Assembly (NCBI RefSeq): GCF_022531965.1
Contig: NZ_CP092831.1
Location: 2,675,001 to 2,739,000 of the forward strand
Direction: 5' to 3'
Length of the DNA stretch: 64,000 bases
DNA from: Paenibacillus peoriae
GTDB lineage: Bacteria > Bacillota > Bacilli > Paenibacillales > Paenibacillaceae
The notes under the pieces were generated by a model. The model saw only the letters and a program-made list of their open reading frames with translations, did no database searches and was not told the origin of the DNA. This document shows, piece by piece, positions 27,981 through 35,305 of the stretch. Positions within the stretch are counted from its first letter, which is position 1; every line of letters begins with the position of its first letter. A program made the position numbers and the translations under genes.

Positions 27981-28005
27981 GGGGTGTTAACAGCACCCCT
28001 TTTTT
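27981..28005 (+). terminator. terminator after amylase gene
   Basis: GGGGTG (27981-27986) pairs with CACCCC (27994-27999), followed by six T residues. Confidence 0.85.
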
Positions 28006-28167: not shown

Positions 28168-28950
28168 TTATAAAGGGGGTATGCCTTCCGGTATGTTTCG
28201 ACTCTTGCTCTTGGCAAGCAACTGCTCATCAAACGGCAAATTCTCTTTGATCGCCCACAGATCGTCATAGCTGAGAATACAGCGATCAGCTCTGGACAGA
28301 TCCTGCCGGCCGGAGCCGGGGTTATGGAAGCCGATACAGTACATTCCTGCACTTTTGGCTGCCTGGACCCCGTTATGTGAATCCTCAATAACGATGCAAT
28401 GGGCTGGTGCAATGCCTAGCTGCTCGGCGGCGTATAAGAAGATGTCCGGTGCCGGCTTACCCTGCAGTACCTCTTCACCGGTGATTCGAATGTCAAAGTA
28501 ACGGCCAAGTCCTGTCTTTTCCATAATGAGATCAATCAGCGCCCGCGGAGAGGAAGAGGCCACCGCGACCGGAATCCCTTTCTCTTGCAGCCAGTCCAAC
28601 CACCGCTCCAGTCCATCGATCGCCGCAAGGCCCTCGTGTGCAATCATTGTCTGCATCACATTTTTTCGGTGATAGGACAAGGCCTCTTCCACCGTATTGG
28701 TGAGCTGATGCCTGTCCAGCACTTGACGCCACATGGATTCGAGTGTCACTCCGACATAGGTGTGATGCTCTTCTTCCGTCATGGGCGCACCGAAATGGGC
28801 AAAGGAGCTGCGTTCGACCTCAAAGTAGATCGGTTCGCTGTCTACTAACACCCCGTCCATGTCGAAAATGACCGCTTTGACTGGAACGGACGCGGATAGG
28901 TCTCCTGTGCATTCATTATTCGTCGGTGTAACATGATGGATGCTCGTCAT
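28168..28950 (-). CDS. HAD phosphatase, beta-phosphoglucomutase-like
   Basis: The product (260 residues) is a subfamily IA HAD hydrolase: motif I VIFDMDGVLVDSEPIYFE near residue 30, a helical cap, motif II VAVASSS near 136, motif III Lys in GKPAPDIFLYAAEQLG near 168, and motif IV IVIEDSHNGVQAAKSAG. Members act as sugar-phosphate phosphatases or phosphomutases. It starts about 30 bases downstream of the dehydrogenase gene on the same strand, the last gene of a four-gene unit. The ATG at 28950 is preferred over that at 28956 because GGGGGAG is too close to the latter. An extended N-terminus of about 24 residues precedes motif I. Its likely job is to remove phosphate from the aminotransferase product; this is inference from context. 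Confidence 0.88.
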   Translation of the reverse strand: MTSIHHVTPTNNECTGDLSASVPVKAVIFDMDGVLVDSEPIYFEVERSSFAHFGAPMTEEEHHTYVGVTLESMWRQVLDRHQLTNTVEEALSYHRKNVMQTMIAHEGLAAIDGLERWLDWLQEKGIPVAVASSSPRALIDLIMEKTGLGRYFDIRITGEEVLQGKPAPDIFLYAAEQLGIAPAHCIVIEDSHNGVQAAKSAGMYCIGFHNPGSGRQDLSRADRCILSYDDLWAIKENLPFDEQLLAKSKSRNIPEGIPPL

Positions 28951-28980
28951 GTCCATTCTCCCCCTTGTTAGTAGCTAAAT

Positions 28981-30030
28981 TTAGTTGTCGGAGCCACTAG
29001 ATTGCAGCACAATCTTGATCGCCTGAGACGAGGGCTGAAGTGTCCGCTCGCTGATATTGCATCCAAGCGTCTTAAAGGCTTCATGGTAGTCATCCAGCGG
29101 ATACGAGTGGGTAATGATTTTTTTGGCGGGAATGATTTGCTGCTCAATCAGGTAATGCGCCGTGGAGAACGTGCCCAGAGAATCAATCGAACCGATGATT
29201 TTAAGGCTACGGTCAACTACCTCTTTCGGATTAAACGAGCTTATCCCATCTCTCAGCCCCACCAGCATCAAATACCCGCCGCTCGCAAGCTGGCTTAGTA
29301 CCTCAGTGCCGACCACTCCTGTGGTGTCCACAATCATGTCCACCTGATTTTTTAACGGAGCCAGCTTATGAATGGCCGATTCCAGTGTGGCGTGCGCGGA
29401 CCACCGTTCGGGAGCAATAGAATCTGCTATGGCGAGCCGTTCCTCCGAGATGTCAACAAGGCAACCAGTTACGCCTTTCGAAGCAAGAGCATAGCTGTAC
29501 AGAATCCCGATCGGACCTGCGCCTATAATAACGGTTGTGAAGTTCGGCAGCAGGTTAATCTGGTTGATTCCGGTCAGCATACAGCTCAGCGGCTCGGTCA
29601 GCGTCGCTTCTTCGTAGCTGATATGGTCCTTCAACTTGTACAAAAAACGGTCCTCAGTCACATAATAATCGGTGAACGTACCGTCTGCGCTGACTCCGGT
29701 CTCGGTTACGGATTTGTGTGTGCAATGATTTTGTCTTCCTGTCCGGCACATTTCGCATTGGCCGCAGTAGTAAGTTGGATCAATCACCACTCGGTCTCCA
29801 GGCTGCAGTGAACTGACGGCTGGTCCTACAGCGATCACATCCCCCGCTGATTCGTGCCCCAAAATCGTAGAAGGCACGGCATGATATTTGCCACTGATGA
29901 TACCTAGATCCGTACCGCATACGCCAGTTGCCCGAATCCGGACGAGTACATCGTTATCTTTTTTTATCTCCGGGATAGGTCTTTCCTCAAGTGCGACATC
30001 CCAAGCTGATTTATATACAAGTGCGAGCAT
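28981..30030 (-). CDS. zinc-dependent alcohol dehydrogenase, GutB/threonine-dehydrogenase type
   Basis: The product (349 residues) is a medium-chain dehydrogenase. Catalytic zinc ligands are Cys38 (ATGVCGTD) and the GHE pair at 59-60; the structural zinc loop has CGQCEMCRTGRQNHC; the nucleotide fold has IIGAGPIGILYSYALA. It should oxidise a hydroxyl of a polyol or amino-polyol with NAD(P). The frame is open 45 codons further upstream, but AAAGGAGGAATTATAC directly precedes the ATG at 30030, and the family fold begins there. It lies 34 bases downstream of the aminotransferase gene. In azasugar clusters an enzyme of this type oxidises the terminal hydroxyl and so triggers ring closure; that parallel is my inference. 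Confidence 0.93.
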   Translation of the reverse strand: MLALVYKSAWDVALEERPIPEIKKDNDVLVRIRATGVCGTDLGIISGKYHAVPSTILGHESAGDVIAVGPAVSSLQPGDRVVIDPTYYCGQCEMCRTGRQNHCTHKSVTETGVSADGTFTDYYVTEDRFLYKLKDHISYEEATLTEPLSCMLTGINQINLLPNFTTVIIGAGPIGILYSYALASKGVTGCLVDISEERLAIADSIAPERWSAHATLESAIHKLAPLKNQVDMIVDTTGVVGTEVLSQLASGGYLMLVGLRDGISSFNPKEVVDRSLKIIGSIDSLGTFSTAHYLIEQQIIPAKKIITHSYPLDDYHEAFKTLGCNISERTLQPSSQAIKIVLQSSGSDN

Positions 30031-30064
30031 GTATAATTCCTCCTTTTGCTTATTGGGTAGATCG

Positions 30065-31303
30065 TTAGTGAAGGGTAGCAAGAACGGCGTCAAGCCGTTT
30101 AACAATTTCGACAATCTCATCTTCGGTAGCCGTGAGGGAAGGTCTGACTTTGACCACATTCCCATAACCGTAACGGGAACCTCTCAGAATTAATTGTTGT
30201 TCCTCAAATGCGCGATCGATAATCCCATTGCTTTTCACTGCATCCGGGGCATCGTCCTCGTCTACAATTTCCAGTCCCCACATCAGTCCGACGCCACGAG
30301 CCTCACCAATGCAATCATACTTGTCGGCCATCTCCGTCAGCAGGGATCCGAGCAGGCTTCCTTTAGACCGGACGGCTTCCAGAAAACCAGGCTCGGTTAC
30401 AACCTCCAATGTGGATTTGGCTGCCGTGACCGAGATCAGATTGCTGCCCGAAGTAAAGGAATGTTCGTGCTTCTCCAGGACATCGAGACGAGACTGCATC
30501 AATACCGCCGCAACCGGGACTCCAATACCGCCCAGACCCTTAGCGAGAGTAATAATATCCGGTTGGATGTCAAACAGTTCACTTGCGAACATGTAACCTG
30601 TCCGCCCAATTCCGGTCTGCACTTCGTCTGCAATCAGAATCATCCCATGCTCGTCGCATAGCTGACGGAGGCGCTTGAAATATCCTGCAGGCGGGATGAT
30701 ATTACCTCCGTTGCCCAGAATGGGTTCAATAATCATGCAGGCCACAGACCCTGAGCTTCCATACTCAATGGCATCCGATATAGCGTCAATACAATGATGA
30801 CCACACTTGTCTGGTGAAGAATTAAAGGGACAGCGATAACAGTAGGGGGCAGGCACATGCAGAGAATTTGCTGCAACTGAGTTAGGAAAATTCTTGCGAC
30901 GAAAGGCATTACCGGAAATGCCTGTTGCAAACTGGGTTTGTCCATGATGTGACAGATGCAGACTGATGATATCGGTTGCTCCGGTGTATTTTTGGGCCAG
31001 CTTCACAGCACATTCGTTCGCTGTGGAGCCGGTAATATCTCTCATCCATCCGGCGTCTATGCCGTTCGGGGCATACTGGATTAGATGATCTAGGACTTCT
31101 TCGACATAAGGCTCTGTAAAAGTAGAAGACATGTGTGCAAGATTGCCGACTTGCTCCTGTACTTTGCTTACGACATGAGGGTGGTTATAACCGAGCGACA
31201 AGTTGAAGGTGCCGGATACGCCATCCAAATACTCCTTACCCGAATCGTCAATTAGAGTAATGCCTTTACCATATCTGAAACGTTCTTTGGTCAACGTATG
31301 CAC
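30065..31303 (-). CDS. class III (GabT-like) PLP aminotransferase
   Basis: The product (412 residues) is a class III aminotransferase. Landmarks are the GSTANECAVKLAQKYTG cofactor-phosphate loop, ILIADEVQTGIGRTG with the PLP-binding Asp, and the Schiff-base Lys in ITLAKGLGGIG. A CPFNSSPDKCGHHC cysteine-histidine segment in the middle occurs in the AGXT2-like branch. The open frame extends to 31333, but GGAGGGGAAATATC lies inside that extension and fits a GTG start at 31301-31303, chosen here. It lies in an operon with an MFS transporter (upstream), a zinc dehydrogenase and a HAD phosphatase. Substrate is unknown; a ketose phosphate such as fructose 6-phosphate is one possibility. Confidence 0.92.
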   Translation of the reverse strand: MHTLTKERFRYGKGITLIDDSGKEYLDGVSGTFNLSLGYNHPHVVSKVQEQVGNLAHMSSTFTEPYVEEVLDHLIQYAPNGIDAGWMRDITGSTANECAVKLAQKYTGATDIISLHLSHHGQTQFATGISGNAFRRKNFPNSVAANSLHVPAPYCYRCPFNSSPDKCGHHCIDAISDAIEYGSSGSVACMIIEPILGNGGNIIPPAGYFKRLRQLCDEHGMILIADEVQTGIGRTGYMFASELFDIQPDIITLAKGLGGIGVPVAAVLMQSRLDVLEKHEHSFTSGSNLISVTAAKSTLEVVTEPGFLEAVRSKGSLLGSLLTEMADKYDCIGEARGVGLMWGLEIVDEDDAPDAVKSNGIIDRAFEEQQLILRGSRYGYGNVVKVRPSLTATEDEIVEIVKRLDAVLATLH

Positions 31304-31390
31304 GATATTTCCCCTCCATATCAGAATATACATTCTTATTAAGTCATCTTTATAAAGTCTACCACCCTATCAGAGCATAACGAGGCTGAA

Positions 31391-31529
31391 CTCACCTCCC
31401 CAAAATAAGAAATCCACCTTCCTTGCCCTCATGGACAAGGGAGCATAATCCGGTGCTTCTGCGATAGGCCTCACCTCCCCTAAGAACTAAAACAATATCA
31501 TCCTTCCTTGCCCTGATGGGCAAGAGAGT
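31391..31529. repeat. imperfect tandem duplication at MFS gene 3' end
   Basis: The segment at 31391-31443 resembles 31470-31529: both begin CTCACCTCCCC and both contain CCTTCCTTGCCCT (31417, 31502) followed by TGGxCAAG. On the minus strand the second copy encodes the last codons of the transporter (LAHQGKEG, stop) and the first, downstream copy reads LVHEGKEGG. It looks like a partial duplication of the end of the gene plus a following GGGGAGGTGAG ribosome-site-like sequence. The period is about 79-85 bases. Confidence 0.6.
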
Positions 31530-32706
31530 CAACGACTCGGCTGCCCCGATCATTCCACAGATGCGTGAGAATAAGTGCCAGCAGCAAAATCAGAGTAAAC
31601 CCTCCTAAAATCCAGAGGCTAGCCGCCACTGGCCATTCGCTCATGCTCCAGCCAATTACATATTGAAGCACCGAGCCGCCAATTCCGCCCGACGCAATCA
31701 GAATGCTGGTCGTCCGCTCGGTCATTCCTGGAATCAGCACGTTGGCATAGACAAGCGCGATACAGAAGAGTCCAGACATGAATAGACCTGCACCGAAAAT
31801 TATAAGGTATGTAGCCCATTGGCTGGATATAAACACCATGGCAACTAGGAAACAGAAAGTACCGATTGCACTCCATAGCAGGTAAGGAATATATCCTGCT
31901 GACTCTGCAATCCTTCCTGAGAACATACGACCAATGATCATTGCAATCCAAAGCACGCTGACACCCAGCGAGGCTACGGATCCTTGAAGATGTAGCGTCT
32001 CTGTCAGAATAGAAGGTAGGAAGTTCATGAGCCCCAGTTCAAGACCCATATAAACAAAGAAGAATATAATGAAGATTCCTAGCAATACACGATGCTGTCC
32101 AGAGTAACGGGCTTGTTCAACTGAACGTTCAGTAGTTCGGATGTCTGCTTGGGTAAGGTGAGAGGAGGCGGATGTAGGCATGGTAAGCCACAACAGCGCT
32201 AAGACAAAAGTGAGAAGGGAGATGGTGTAAAAGGTTAGATTCCACATTCCAAGCCAGATATACAGGCTAACGATCGCCGGAATAAGCAGTGCACCAAGTG
32301 CAAAATAGACATCCAGCTTAGACATGGCCACGGCTTTTTGCTCCTCCGTGAACTCAATGGTAAACGCTCCGATGGACGATTCAATGATGCCTGAGCCGAA
32401 ACCAACCCAGATGGCCATTGCGATGACCCAATTCCATGAGGGTAGTACACCCAAGATAATGCACGCTGCCACGATACTACCCAGGGCTATGGATAACATG
32501 GACTTGCGACCCAGATGCAGAGCCATGAAGGGGGTGAGCAGAACACCGACAAGAAATCCGAAAAACTGCAGGAACAGCAGTAATCCACCATCGCTGTACC
32601 CCCGTCCATAGTGAGATAGTAAAGTCGGCAGTAATGCCCCAAGCACCACACTGGTGACGCCGATTAACAGATAGAAAGCACAACTTAAAGCGAATAGTCT
32701 CTTCAA
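31498..32706 (-). CDS. MFS transporter, 12-helix
   Basis: The product (402 residues) is a major facilitator protein with about twelve helices. The loop 2-3 motif appears as FMALHLGRKSMLS and a central cytoplasmic loop of about 25 residues (residues 180-205) is present. The order of helices and the N-terminus resemble FucP-like and other sugar-type MFS proteins, but this is only family-level. TTG start (32704-32706) with GGAGGG nine bases upstream. It is the first gene of the minus-strand unit with aminotransferase, dehydrogenase and phosphatase, about 195 bases before the aminotransferase. It could export a product or import a substrate; sequence alone cannot decide. Confidence 0.9.
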   Translation of the reverse strand: MKRLFALSCAFYLLIGVTSVVLGALLPTLLSHYGRGYSDGGLLLFLQFFGFLVGVLLTPFMALHLGRKSMLSIALGSIVAACIILGVLPSWNWVIAMAIWVGFGSGIIESSIGAFTIEFTEEQKAVAMSKLDVYFALGALLIPAIVSLYIWLGMWNLTFYTISLLTFVLALLWLTMPTSASSHLTQADIRTTERSVEQARYSGQHRVLLGIFIIFFFVYMGLELGLMNFLPSILTETLHLQGSVASLGVSVLWIAMIIGRMFSGRIAESAGYIPYLLWSAIGTFCFLVAMVFISSQWATYLIIFGAGLFMSGLFCIALVYANVLIPGMTERTTSILIASGGIGGSVLQYVIGWSMSEWPVAASLWILGGFTLILLLALILTHLWNDRGSRVVDSLAHQGKEG

Positions 32707-33216: not shown

Positions 33217-34125
33217 ATGAATTTTTATTTAGAAATCCCGGAGCTTGACCGACATTTTCCTTTCCGGAGTTTTATTAATAAAGGCGACGTGCTTTGCTAT
33301 CCTCATTGGCATAAAGAAATTGAAATTATTTATGTGACCCAGGGAACCTTGGATCTGGGAATTAACGATATTTCGATACGCATGAAACAAGGTGAAGTTC
33401 AGTTTATAAATGGGGGTGATGTTCATTATTTCCTTGCCTCTCCCGACAGCGAACGGGTGGTTATTCAATTTGATCTGAGCTTTTTTCAAGAGGTTTCCAC
33501 ATTAAGTGATCAGAAACGCCCTCTAAGATATATATTTACGGAGATGGAGCAATCAAGCTGGAACTGGCCAGAAGAAACAGCAGCTAAAATGCTTCCTCTG
33601 ATTCAAAGCATTTATGATGAGAACGTCAACCGACACGAAGGCCATGCTTATATGATCAAAGCCAAGGTGTTTGAGATGTTGACTCTTATTATGCGTGAAG
33701 TGCCGAGAAGCATAACCCCAAGGCTTCCTGAACTCTCAGAAAGAACCTTAACACAATCCAAGGACACTCTTTATAAACTGGAACGTATTTTTGAGTATGT
33801 GGAATGTCATTATCATGAAACCATCTCGCTGAAGAATGTCGCTGATTATATGGGGTTCAGTCCTTATTATTTCGCCAGGCTGTTTAAGAAGAATACGGGG
33901 ATGACCTTTGTAGCATTTTTGAATGATTACAGACTAAATAAGGCAAAATGGATCTTGTTGAATGAAAACAATCCGATTACTGAGGTCGCAGAGGCGGCAG
34001 GGTTCAGTAGTGTAAAGACGTTTCATCATCTCTTTAAGGAAGCGACAGGAACATCACCATTGAAATACCGCAGGACAATATTCGGGAATAAAACAGCAAG
34101 AAATGAGGAGGAAAGCTTTTCATGA
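33217..34125 (+). CDS. AraC-family regulator, cupin type
   Basis: The product (302 residues) has an N-terminal cupin-like sensor (CYPHWHKEIEIIYVTQGTLDL, MKQGEVQFINGGDVHYF) and a C-terminal AraC DNA-binding pair from about residue 190 (LKNVADYMGFSPYYFARLFK; ITEVAEAAGFSSVKTFHHLF). Such proteins usually activate sugar-use genes. AAAAGGAGTCTACCAAA precedes the ATG. It is divergent from the MFS/aminotransferase operon and precedes a sugar-dehydrogenase-like gene by about 120 bases, so it could control either or both. Confidence 0.92.
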   Translation: MNFYLEIPELDRHFPFRSFINKGDVLCYPHWHKEIEIIYVTQGTLDLGINDISIRMKQGEVQFINGGDVHYFLASPDSERVVIQFDLSFFQEVSTLSDQKRPLRYIFTEMEQSSWNWPEETAAKMLPLIQSIYDENVNRHEGHAYMIKAKVFEMLTLIMREVPRSITPRLPELSERTLTQSKDTLYKLERIFEYVECHYHETISLKNVADYMGFSPYYFARLFKKNTGMTFVAFLNDYRLNKAKWILLNENNPITEVAEAAGFSSVKTFHHLFKEATGTSPLKYRRTIFGNKTARNEEESFS

Positions 34126-34246
34126 GATTTGTATGATAGAGCTATCCGACGAAGTTAAGGGTGAGTTACGAGGACATTGAAATTTATTGACATGAGCACC
34201 CACTTGATAGGCGGTGGGCTTAAATCAGGAGTGGAGGAAGATGAAA

Positions 34247-35305
34247 ATGGACAATCGTATATACAATGTAGTCATCATCGGTTATGGAGGCATGGGAAGC
34301 TACCATGTTCAATTGATCGAATCTAATCAGCAACTTGCCGTTGGCGGTGTATATGATATTGTCGATTACCGGATGGAACTGGCTGCGGCTGCCGGCTATA
34401 AAACCTACGCGAGCCTGGACGCCGTTCTGGCCGATGAGGCCGTCGATATTGTTTTGATAGCAACACCTAATGATGTTCATAAGGAAATCGCGATCCAGGC
34501 GCTACAAGCCGGAAAGCATGTCATTTGCGAAAAACCGGTTACGATAACGAGCGCGGATTTCTTGGATATTGTTGAGGTGGCAAAGAAAGAAAATCGTGTG
34601 TTTACGGTACATCAGAACCGTCGATGGGATGAAGACTTCCGAATTATCAAAGATATAATTGGCAATAAGACCGTGGGCGAGCTCTTCCAGCTGGAATCGC
34701 GAGTTCAGGGAGCTAATGGCATTCCAGGTGACTGGCGGCAACTAAAGGCGTATGGAGGAGGAATGCTACTGGATTGGGGAGTACATCTGTTGGACCAGCT
34801 GCTTCAGATTACGGACAGCAAAATAGAAAGCGTAGCTGCTACCCTAAGCTATATTTTGGGGACTGAAGTGGATGACGGCTTTGCCAGCTTTATTGAGTTC
34901 AAGGACGGCCTGACAGCAGTCATTGAAGTGGGTACAACCAATTACGTAAAGCTGCCACGCTGGTATATTAAAGGAACCGAAGGAACCGCAGTGATTCGAG
35001 ATTGGGATTTGAGCGGAGAGATCGTCACCCGAAATCCAGATGTTGCTCACGTGGAACCCAAGCCGATTCAAGCAGGTCAAGGATTGACGAAAACGATGGC
35101 GCCGCCGTCTGAGGAATCCACCCTTAAGTTCCCGATTGAGAAAATACCTGCTGCTGCAGAAAGCTTTTATGAGAACTTTGTCTCCACCATCGAAGGAAAA
35201 GCGGAGATTGCGATCAAAAATGAAGAAGTACACCGTGTATTGGTGCTAATTGAAACGATTTTTGAGGCGGCAGCAACCAAAAGCGTGATTCGAAGAACTA
35301 TTTAG
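34247..35305 (+). CDS. Gfo/Idh/MocA-family oxidoreductase
   Basis: The product (352 residues) has an N-terminal Rossmann domain (VVIIGYGGMGSYHVQLI; VLIATPNDVHKEIAIQAL; the EKP motif HVICEKPVTI near residue 95) and a C-terminal alpha/beta domain with GGGMLLDWGVHLLDQLL. Members oxidise or reduce sugars and inositols with NAD(P). GTGGAGG lies nine bases before the ATG at 34247; an ATG six bases earlier is also possible, and the open frame goes on to 34214. It follows the AraC gene and may be its target. In kanosamine and related pathways an enzyme of this family acts with an aminotransferase and a phosphatase, so a link with the neighbouring minus-strand operon is possible. Confidence 0.92.
   Translation: MDNRIYNVVIIGYGGMGSYHVQLIESNQQLAVGGVYDIVDYRMELAAAAGYKTYASLDAVLADEAVDIVLIATPNDVHKEIAIQALQAGKHVICEKPVTITSADFLDIVEVAKKENRVFTVHQNRRWDEDFRIIKDIIGNKTVGELFQLESRVQGANGIPGDWRQLKAYGGGMLLDWGVHLLDQLLQITDSKIESVAATLSYILGTEVDDGFASFIEFKDGLTAVIEVGTTNYVKLPRWYIKGTEGTAVIRDWDLSGEIVTRNPDVAHVEPKPIQAGQGLTKTMAPPSEESTLKFPIEKIPAAAESFYENFVSTIEGKAEIAIKNEEVHRVLVLIETIFEAAATKSVIRRTI

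Follow-up and report, generated by a model that had tools for sequence, protein, structure and literature searches.

The four co-directional genes in the window (the whole 64 kb stretch of DNA that was analysed) are with high confidence assigned, on sequence grounds, to a Paenibacillus-type azasugar three-gene cluster together with its transporter, and the operon is a member of an already known system, not a novel one. The azasugar reading of the original prediction was supported by the clade of the aminotransferase (AT) in a phylogenetic tree, by its complete match to a published azasugar motif and by the agreement with the available excerpts of the published Paenibacillus polymyxa work. The variant with a HAD phosphatase and a transporter, which had been put forward as new, is present, but its newness did not stand, as Beal & Horenstein (2021, PMC8382821) had earlier reported AT-dehydrogenase (DH)-phosphatase clusters with a HAD phosphatase from Paenibacillus and Chitinophaga, and had noted that azasugar three-gene clusters commonly have an MFS transporter associated with them. 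The window shows this Paenibacillus/Chitinophaga type, with a PF08240-type DH and an adjacent PF13419 HAD gene in the order AT-DH-phosphatase, and the MFS gene expected beside such a cluster is present.

Table 1. Genes of the putative azasugar operon and an associated repeat (positions in the window)
Feature	Position	Strand	Family model or basis
MFS transporter, first gene, 402 aa	31498..32706	-	PF07690 (MFS_1)
Class III PLP aminotransferase, putative GabT1 ortholog, 412 aa	30065..31303	-	PF00202 (Aminotran_3)
Zinc-dependent aminopolyol dehydrogenase, putative GutB1 ortholog, 349 aa	28981..30030	-	PF08240 (ADH_N/Glu_dehyd_C)
HAD phosphatase, beta-phosphoglucomutase-like subfamily, 262 aa	28168..28956	-	PF13419 (HAD_2), TIGR02009
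Short direct duplication, ~31520-31470 and 31434-31391	31391..31520	-	Read by eye and by alignment with relatives

The predicted coordinates and families of the four genes were borne out on the minus strand by Pfam matches, except for the start of the DH gene, which is likely the ATG at 30030 (1050-bp ORF) and not position 30165. The AT likely starts at the GTG at 31303, as annotated in a P. polymyxa relative, with the longest ORF running from the ATG at 31333. The active-site motifs are intact throughout this compact run, in which the intergenic gaps are 194 bp (MFS-AT), 34 bp (AT-DH) and 24 bp (DH-HAD), respectively. Since the order MFS-AT-DH-HAD recurs in 36 of 40 Paenibacillus loci, the run was not attributed to chance. 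At the clustering used, every additional family was confined to at most 18 of these loci, and kinase, isomerase, aldolase and deaminase were therefore placed outside the conserved unit. The divergent AraC gene (33217-34125) and the divergent Gfo/Idh/MocA gene (34214-35305), considered as the regulator of the cluster and as the missing reductase, respectively, were rejected as members because full-length matches of both stand beside the operon in only 3/40 Paenibacillus loci (L033, L034 and L069; also in L131). The flanking genes, not being conserved with the operon, are thus a poor place to look for late-step enzymes.

The AT phylogeny, named beforehand as a check, was constructed with 54 of the 137 available rows (42 rows as the azasugar clade and 12 paralogs as the outgroup), in which the named azasugar-producer strains were represented by the species Chitinophaga pinensis only. 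The window AT was placed with C. pinensis YS-16 and the Bacillus-type azasugar enzymes in a clade with 100/100 support, outside of which all 12 paralogs fell. In this tree, which holds no GABA- or AGXT2-labelled row, it stood apart from ArgD, HemL (two rows), diaminobutyrate-type (L022, L026, L135 and L137) and general class III rows, with the outgroup labels taken from NCBIfam (L023 bears none). The published azasugar consensus SGNXFRXXXFPNXXXXXXXLXVPXPYCXRC was matched at 16/16 fixed positions, with a spacer of six residues between N and L as compared with the printed seven. Even with a spacer of six or seven allowed, the strict motif was present in 14/120 of the nearest homologs among those listed, and was therefore judged too strict for defining the clade. 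The Xenorhabdus and Pantoea rows of the clade match only 8/16 positions, and the outgroup-type rows L020, L025 and L030, together with L021, match 9. The lysine of the AKGL motif is residue 254. When the own genome was searched with a Bacillus-type GabT1, the window gene was the best match by far (2e-120, with the next at 5e-31). The AT was found at an identity of at least 80% in 18/35 same-genus relatives, and a match at 1e-75 was found in 18/398 genomes of the class, the own genome counted. Close homologs are annotated in generic terms only, for example as 'aspartate aminotransferase family protein'.

The DH carries CGTD at residue 38, GHE at residue 58 and a four-cysteine stretch from residue 89, and was by far the best own-genome match of a Bacillus-type GutB1 (7e-55 vs 1e-34). 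The HAD protein exceeds the TIGR02009 cut-off (163.1 vs 153.35 bits), with its HAD motifs at residues 32, 133, 166 and 191; a search of the own genome with a YktC1-type query found nothing at 1e-3.

In P. polymyxa O 2.11 (pPpO211), the four genes, their order and their strand are as in the window, with protein identities of 97.2% (AT), 98.9% (DH), 93.5% (MFS) and 87.7% (HAD), respectively, and the DH counterpart is annotated as 2-amino-2-deoxy-D-mannitol dehydrogenase GutB1. The flanks are amylase, AraC and Gfo genes in the window and SDR, mannitol dehydrogenase, mannonate dehydratase and DUF1349 genes in O 2.11; the gene comparison gave no functional difference between the two clusters. The accession CP002213 is presumably that of P. 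polymyxa SC2. According to the available excerpts of PMC10904899, P. polymyxa GutB1 lies at CP002213:2685402-2686451 and is 1050 bp long, as is the DH ORF of the window; GabT1 of SC2 was assayed (4.9 nmol/min/mg), and GutB1 in a cascade with an engineered transaminase gave mannojirimycin via 2-amino-2-deoxymannitol, as tracked by glucosidase inhibition. PMC8466323 lists GabT1 (ADO56555.1) and GlcP1 (ADO56556.1) of SC2 and counts eight genes in this strain, as against the four conserved across the 40 Paenibacillus loci. The orthology of the window genes to the SC2 enzymes would rest on O 2.11, the equal DH ORF length and the published gene order, and these near-identical orthologs are expected to act as the P. 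polymyxa enzymes do.

In the proposed pathway, C2 of fructose 6-phosphate would be aminated by the AT to give 2-amino-2-deoxy-mannitol 6-phosphate, from which the HAD enzyme, presumed to act on amino-hexitol 6-phosphate, would take off the phosphate; the freed C6 hydroxyl would be converted to an aldehyde by the zinc dehydrogenase, and amine and aldehyde would cyclise spontaneously to mannojirimycin. Enzymes encoded away from the operon would then form 1-deoxynojirimycin (DNJ) or 1-deoxymannojirimycin as the putative final product, which the MFS protein would most likely carry across the membrane. The Paenibacillus strain would, as predicted from its genes, very probably make a deoxynojirimycin-type glycosidase inhibitor.

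The MFS protein is a probable azasugar or aminopolyol transporter. It is 35-39% identical to the MFS proteins beside the Bacillus-type clusters L124-L126, and each of these three genomes gave a single strong match to it in the forward test. In the backward test, a second own-genome MFS scored 1.4e-75 vs 1.6e-73 for the window one, to which it is 41% identical and thus closer than the Bacillus-type proteins. Orthology with the Bacillus-type cluster transporter was dropped on this ambiguous reverse search, and membership of the same subfamily alone is claimed. Export of the product is presumed, but import is conceivable, since the second own-genome MFS, of the same subfamily, adjoins a GH42 beta-galactosidase gene.

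The Bacillus velezensis/amyloliquefaciens gabT1-yktC1-gutB1 cluster was compared through the Bacillus-type loci L124-L126, in which AT and DH are 47-48% and 33-34% identical to those of the window, respectively, and the MFS is of the same subfamily. Their phosphatase is PF00459 (checked in L124 and L125) in the order AT-phosphatase-DH, whereas the window phosphatase is of the HAD type and comes after the DH, with no PF00459 phosphatase between AT and DH. The C. pinensis DAB-1 cluster was compared through C. pinensis YS-16 (L091), which has the order AT-DH-HAD-MFS with a HAD_2 phosphatase; its AT and DH are 60% and 45% identical to those of the window, while neither its phosphatase (best E 0.014, across 51 aa) nor its MFS (best E 1.9) significantly resembles the window counterpart.

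Gene content by itself does not reveal the product, because DAB-1 is the reported product of C. pinensis, which has a related cluster. Another azasugar, either a pyrrolidine such as DAB-1 from a pentulose phosphate or a halt at mannojirimycin or deoxymannojirimycin, is unlikely but of some weight: the three enzymes of C. pinensis stand in the identical order (PMC8382821), and the window AT is nearer to that of YS-16 than to the Bacillus-type ones. Against it, the P. polymyxa GutB1 cascade in the excerpts of PMC10904899 yielded mannojirimycin, and C. pinensis is the only known producer making DAB-1 instead of DNJ on the list of PMC8382821, which includes P. polymyxa DSM 365.

Amino-sugar breakdown, named in the original prediction as the main alternative, was disfavoured by the tree, the NCBIfam scores and the lack of a further conserved gene family. 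Catabolic pathways commonly include class III aminotransferases, polyol dehydrogenases and HAD phosphatases, and the MFS neighbour of the GH42 gene would also suit an operon for import, transamination, oxidation and dephosphorylation of an amino sugar or amino-polyol for growth. Such an operon is nevertheless highly improbable, given the full support that sets the AT apart from the 12 paralogs of the tree, a conserved unit holding none of the four catabolic enzyme types listed above, and the P. polymyxa assays, which in the excerpts of PMC10904899 point towards azasugar synthesis. The AT also reached none of the NCBIfam cut-offs among the 25 listed of 69 matched models (GABAtrnsam, 215.4 vs 506.65; argD, 245.6 vs 410.05), whereas the own-genome ArgD, as a control, passed the argD model cut-off (503.1 vs 496).

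The azasugar system being already published, the value of the assignment is mostly annotation; the comparative additions are the four-gene conservation, the excluded flanks, the exchange of phosphatase and transporter families around a constant transaminase and dehydrogenase, and a DUF1349 gene recurring beside azasugar-type clusters in four phyla. No such gene is in the window; the nearest one of the own genome is ~112 kb away from the operon. Among the papers listed for DUF1349, none had a title concerning azasugars. A modular cluster with a fixed AT-DH core, lineage-specific phosphatases and transporters, and the DUF1349 protein as a fifth component that could supply a late step (mannojirimycin epimerisation or reduction) or protect or bind the product, is a speculative and rather doubtful proposal.

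The glycosidases predicted for the stretch were confirmed as GH36, alpha-amylase, GH42 and GH5 genes, counted within the 64 kb window alone. The direct duplication between the MFS and AT genes overlaps the 3' end of the MFS gene, and both copies terminate in GGGGAGGTGAG, which by eye resembles a ribosome-binding site. No Rfam family reached the gathering score within 20000-41000. Promoter-like sites were at chance level (8 found vs 8.4 expected) and hence none is claimed; terminator-like sites numbered 8 vs 5.4 expected (sd 2.4). The hairpin at 27981-27999 was rejected as the operon terminator, and fits the convergent amylase gene because its T run is on the plus strand.

Four consecutive genes are carried on the minus strand of the window in the order MFS transporter, class III aminotransferase (AT), zinc dehydrogenase (DH) and HAD phosphatase, as the original prediction had it. 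The intergenic spacings are 194 bp (MFS-AT), 34 bp (AT-DH) and 24 bp (DH-HAD), respectively, and the three enzyme genes are thus tightly coupled. The DH ORF as listed, from 30165, runs into the AT gene; its start is almost surely the ATG at 30030 after AGGAGG, by which the ORF comes to 1050 bp. The PLP lysine of AT, the zinc motifs of DH and the four HAD motifs of the phosphatase, which are the catalytic motifs of the respective enzymes, are unbroken. Between the MFS and AT genes there is a short direct duplication, which takes in the final MFS codons. By alignment it is shared with P. ottowii, P. farraposensis and P. polymyxa O 2.11, and the window carries a deletion between the two copies.

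Coordinates of the features in the window and elsewhere in the same genome (one contig, C1, of 5.84 Mb, with the window at 2,675,001-2,739,000)
Feature	Location	Coordinates	Strand
MFS transporter	window	32706-31498	minus
Class III aminotransferase (AT)	window	31303-30065	minus
Zinc dehydrogenase (DH)	window	30030-28981	minus
HAD phosphatase	window	28956-28168	minus
Direct duplication	window	31391-31520	
DUF1349, full-length copy	C1	2591127-2591654	
DUF1349, full-length copy	C1	2024342-2024866	
Second MFS transporter (L132)	C1	2111320-2112504	

Azasugar synthesis in bacteria has been defined by adjoining aminotransferase, phosphatase and dehydrogenase genes, with an AT consensus supplied (Beal & Horenstein 2021, PMC8382821). 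In that paper, C. pinensis and the putative Chitinophaga/Paenibacillus producers have the order aminotransferase-dehydrogenase-phosphatase with a HAD protein as phosphatase, Paenibacillus has 135 hits in the table, and a commonly associated MFS protein is suggested as a possible mover of the azasugar. Each of these sequence features (gene set, order, HAD, MFS and AT consensus) is shared by the window. The AT motif SGNAFRRKNFPNSVAANSLHVPAPYCYRC matched 16/16 fixed positions of the consensus, with a spacer of six residues ahead of the leucine versus seven in the published one; the closest AT from a named organism was that of P. ottowii (98%), and by its relatives the genome belongs to a Paenibacillus close to P. 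polymyxa. In the maximum-likelihood tree, for which 54 of the 137 available rows were used, the AT of the window, that of C. pinensis YS-16 and those of the Bacillus-type loci were placed in a clade of 42 rows with support of 100/100, and the 12 outgroup paralogs fell outside it. The NCBIfam scan covered 11 of these paralogs (all but L023) and gave the labels ArgD, HemL (two), diaminobutyrate-type (four, one of them under its cut-off) and general class III families (four), with no GABA or AGXT2 label among the 11. Motif positions matched ranged from 8 to 16 of 16 in clade rows and from 2 to 9 in outgroup rows, and since these ranges overlap, the motif alone cannot tell clade from outgroup. Based on the consensus, the clade and the match to the published features, the azasugar interpretation holds. 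The four-gene run is an already described system, and the predicted novelty of a variant with a HAD phosphatase is not sustained, such a phosphatase having been described for Paenibacillus and Chitinophaga in PMC8382821.

Among 40 named Paenibacillus loci, the order MFS-AT-DH-HAD was found in 36. Two loci (L061 and L062) have the order HAD-MFS-AT-DH, and in a third (L064) another HAD-family protein stands after MFS-AT-DH. That of P. ehimensis NBRC 15659 (L070) has just DH and a partial AT match lacking the N-terminal part, with no MFS or HAD match inside the 8 kb flanks; this cluster looks decayed. AT, DH, MFS and HAD were counted in 40, 40, 39 and 38 loci, respectively, and the next commonest family in 18; by this drop the conserved unit is the four genes. 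By the same count, the AraC, Gfo/Idh/MocA and amylase genes that flank it in the window were ruled out as cluster members.

P. polymyxa O 2.11 (CP097774.1) has the same four genes; its DH carries the annotation '2-amino-2-deoxy-D-mannitol dehydrogenase GutB1' and is followed by a gene annotated as 'HAD family phosphatase'. Protein identities to the window are 97.2% (AT), 98.9% (DH), 93.5% (MFS) and 87.7% (HAD, residues 1-252). This operon sits on a record (pPpO211) deposited as a 248 kb plasmid; the record may represent a genuine plasmid or a wrongly labelled piece of chromosome. The cluster of P. polymyxa SC2 is given as eight genes, including GabT1 and a fucose-permease-like GlcP1 (PMC8466323). 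According to PMC10904899, SC2 GabT1 has an activity of 4.9 nmol/min/mg, credited to Arciola & Horenstein 2018, and mannojirimycin was made with P. polymyxa GutB1 and an engineered transaminase, the product being tracked by glucosidase inhibition. In the proposed pathway, AT would transaminate fructose 6-phosphate at C2, the HAD protein would remove the phosphate and DH would oxidise C6, upon which the ring would close spontaneously to mannojirimycin; epimerisation and reduction would follow, with the genes for both steps apparently outside the cluster. The route from fructose 6-phosphate to mannojirimycin, with apparently unclustered later steps, is as published (PMC8382821), and transamination and C6 oxidation have been reported for P. 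polymyxa enzymes (PMC10904899). Gene position and TIGR02009 membership point to the HAD protein of the window as the probable phosphatase, and the MFS protein would export the product.

By sequence comparison, both the phosphatase and the transporter are swapped between lineages. The Paenibacillus phosphatase is a beta-phosphoglucomutase-like HAD protein, whereas the Bacillus-type loci L124-L126 (MFS, AT, phosphatase and DH, as published for B. velezensis) have a PF00459 phosphatase, as confirmed in L124 and L125. The C. pinensis phosphatase is a HAD protein without significant similarity to that of the window (best E 0.014), and this type accompanies the C. pinensis-type MFS in 27/40 other named loci. 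Distant relatives of the Paenibacillus HAD (26-28%) were found in a gammaproteobacterium (L101), Nocardiopsis (L102) and Xenorhabdus (L110). The Bacillus-type MFS resembles the window MFS (35-39%), but those of C. pinensis (best E 2e-0) and Xenorhabdus (best E 5e-6, over half of the length) are unlike it and mutually alike (34%). The second MFS in the own genome belongs to the subfamily of the azasugar-linked MFS (41% identity between the two) and is encoded immediately downstream of a GH42 beta-galactosidase gene.

DUF1349 (PF07081), with family assignment confirmed in two loci, was found within the AT flanks (up to 8 kb) in 15/40 Paenibacillus and 10/40 other named loci, a count of 25/80 over four phyla. 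In seven non-Paenibacillus loci (L072, L076, L082, L084, L102, L109 and L110) of Bacteroidota, Actinomycetota and Pseudomonadota, it is the next gene after the transporter and has the same orientation. DUF1349 is possibly an unrecognised fifth component of azasugar clusters, as a lead only, because it is over the cut-off in 38/59 genomes searched (own genome included), the loci are kin by descent, 55/80 are without it (C. pinensis YS-16 among these) and the comparison is uncontrolled. Cluster-linked copies scatter over several distinct groups in the tree. There is no DUF1349 gene in the 64-kb window; of the two full-length copies elsewhere in the genome, one stands ahead of a gene resembling GH1 on visual inspection. 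In PMC8382821, PF07081 is grouped with families annotated as HAD-like phosphatases, in contrast to its Pfam entry as a domain of unknown function.

In the loci of Myxococcus (L094), a Frankiaceae MAG (L104) and Chelatococcus (L107), the AT-DH pair is followed by a gene judged by eye to be P-loop kinase-like; these loci perhaps hold another variant pathway. The kinase-like gene of Myxococcus gave no Pfam match; a PfkB-type kinase gene is next in that locus, and a HAD gene is upstream on the opposite strand. Another AT (L123, genome G259), 49% identical to that of the window, has a different gene setting, with no dehydrogenase match across 12 kb around it and an adjoining ORF of 769 aa without a Pfam match.
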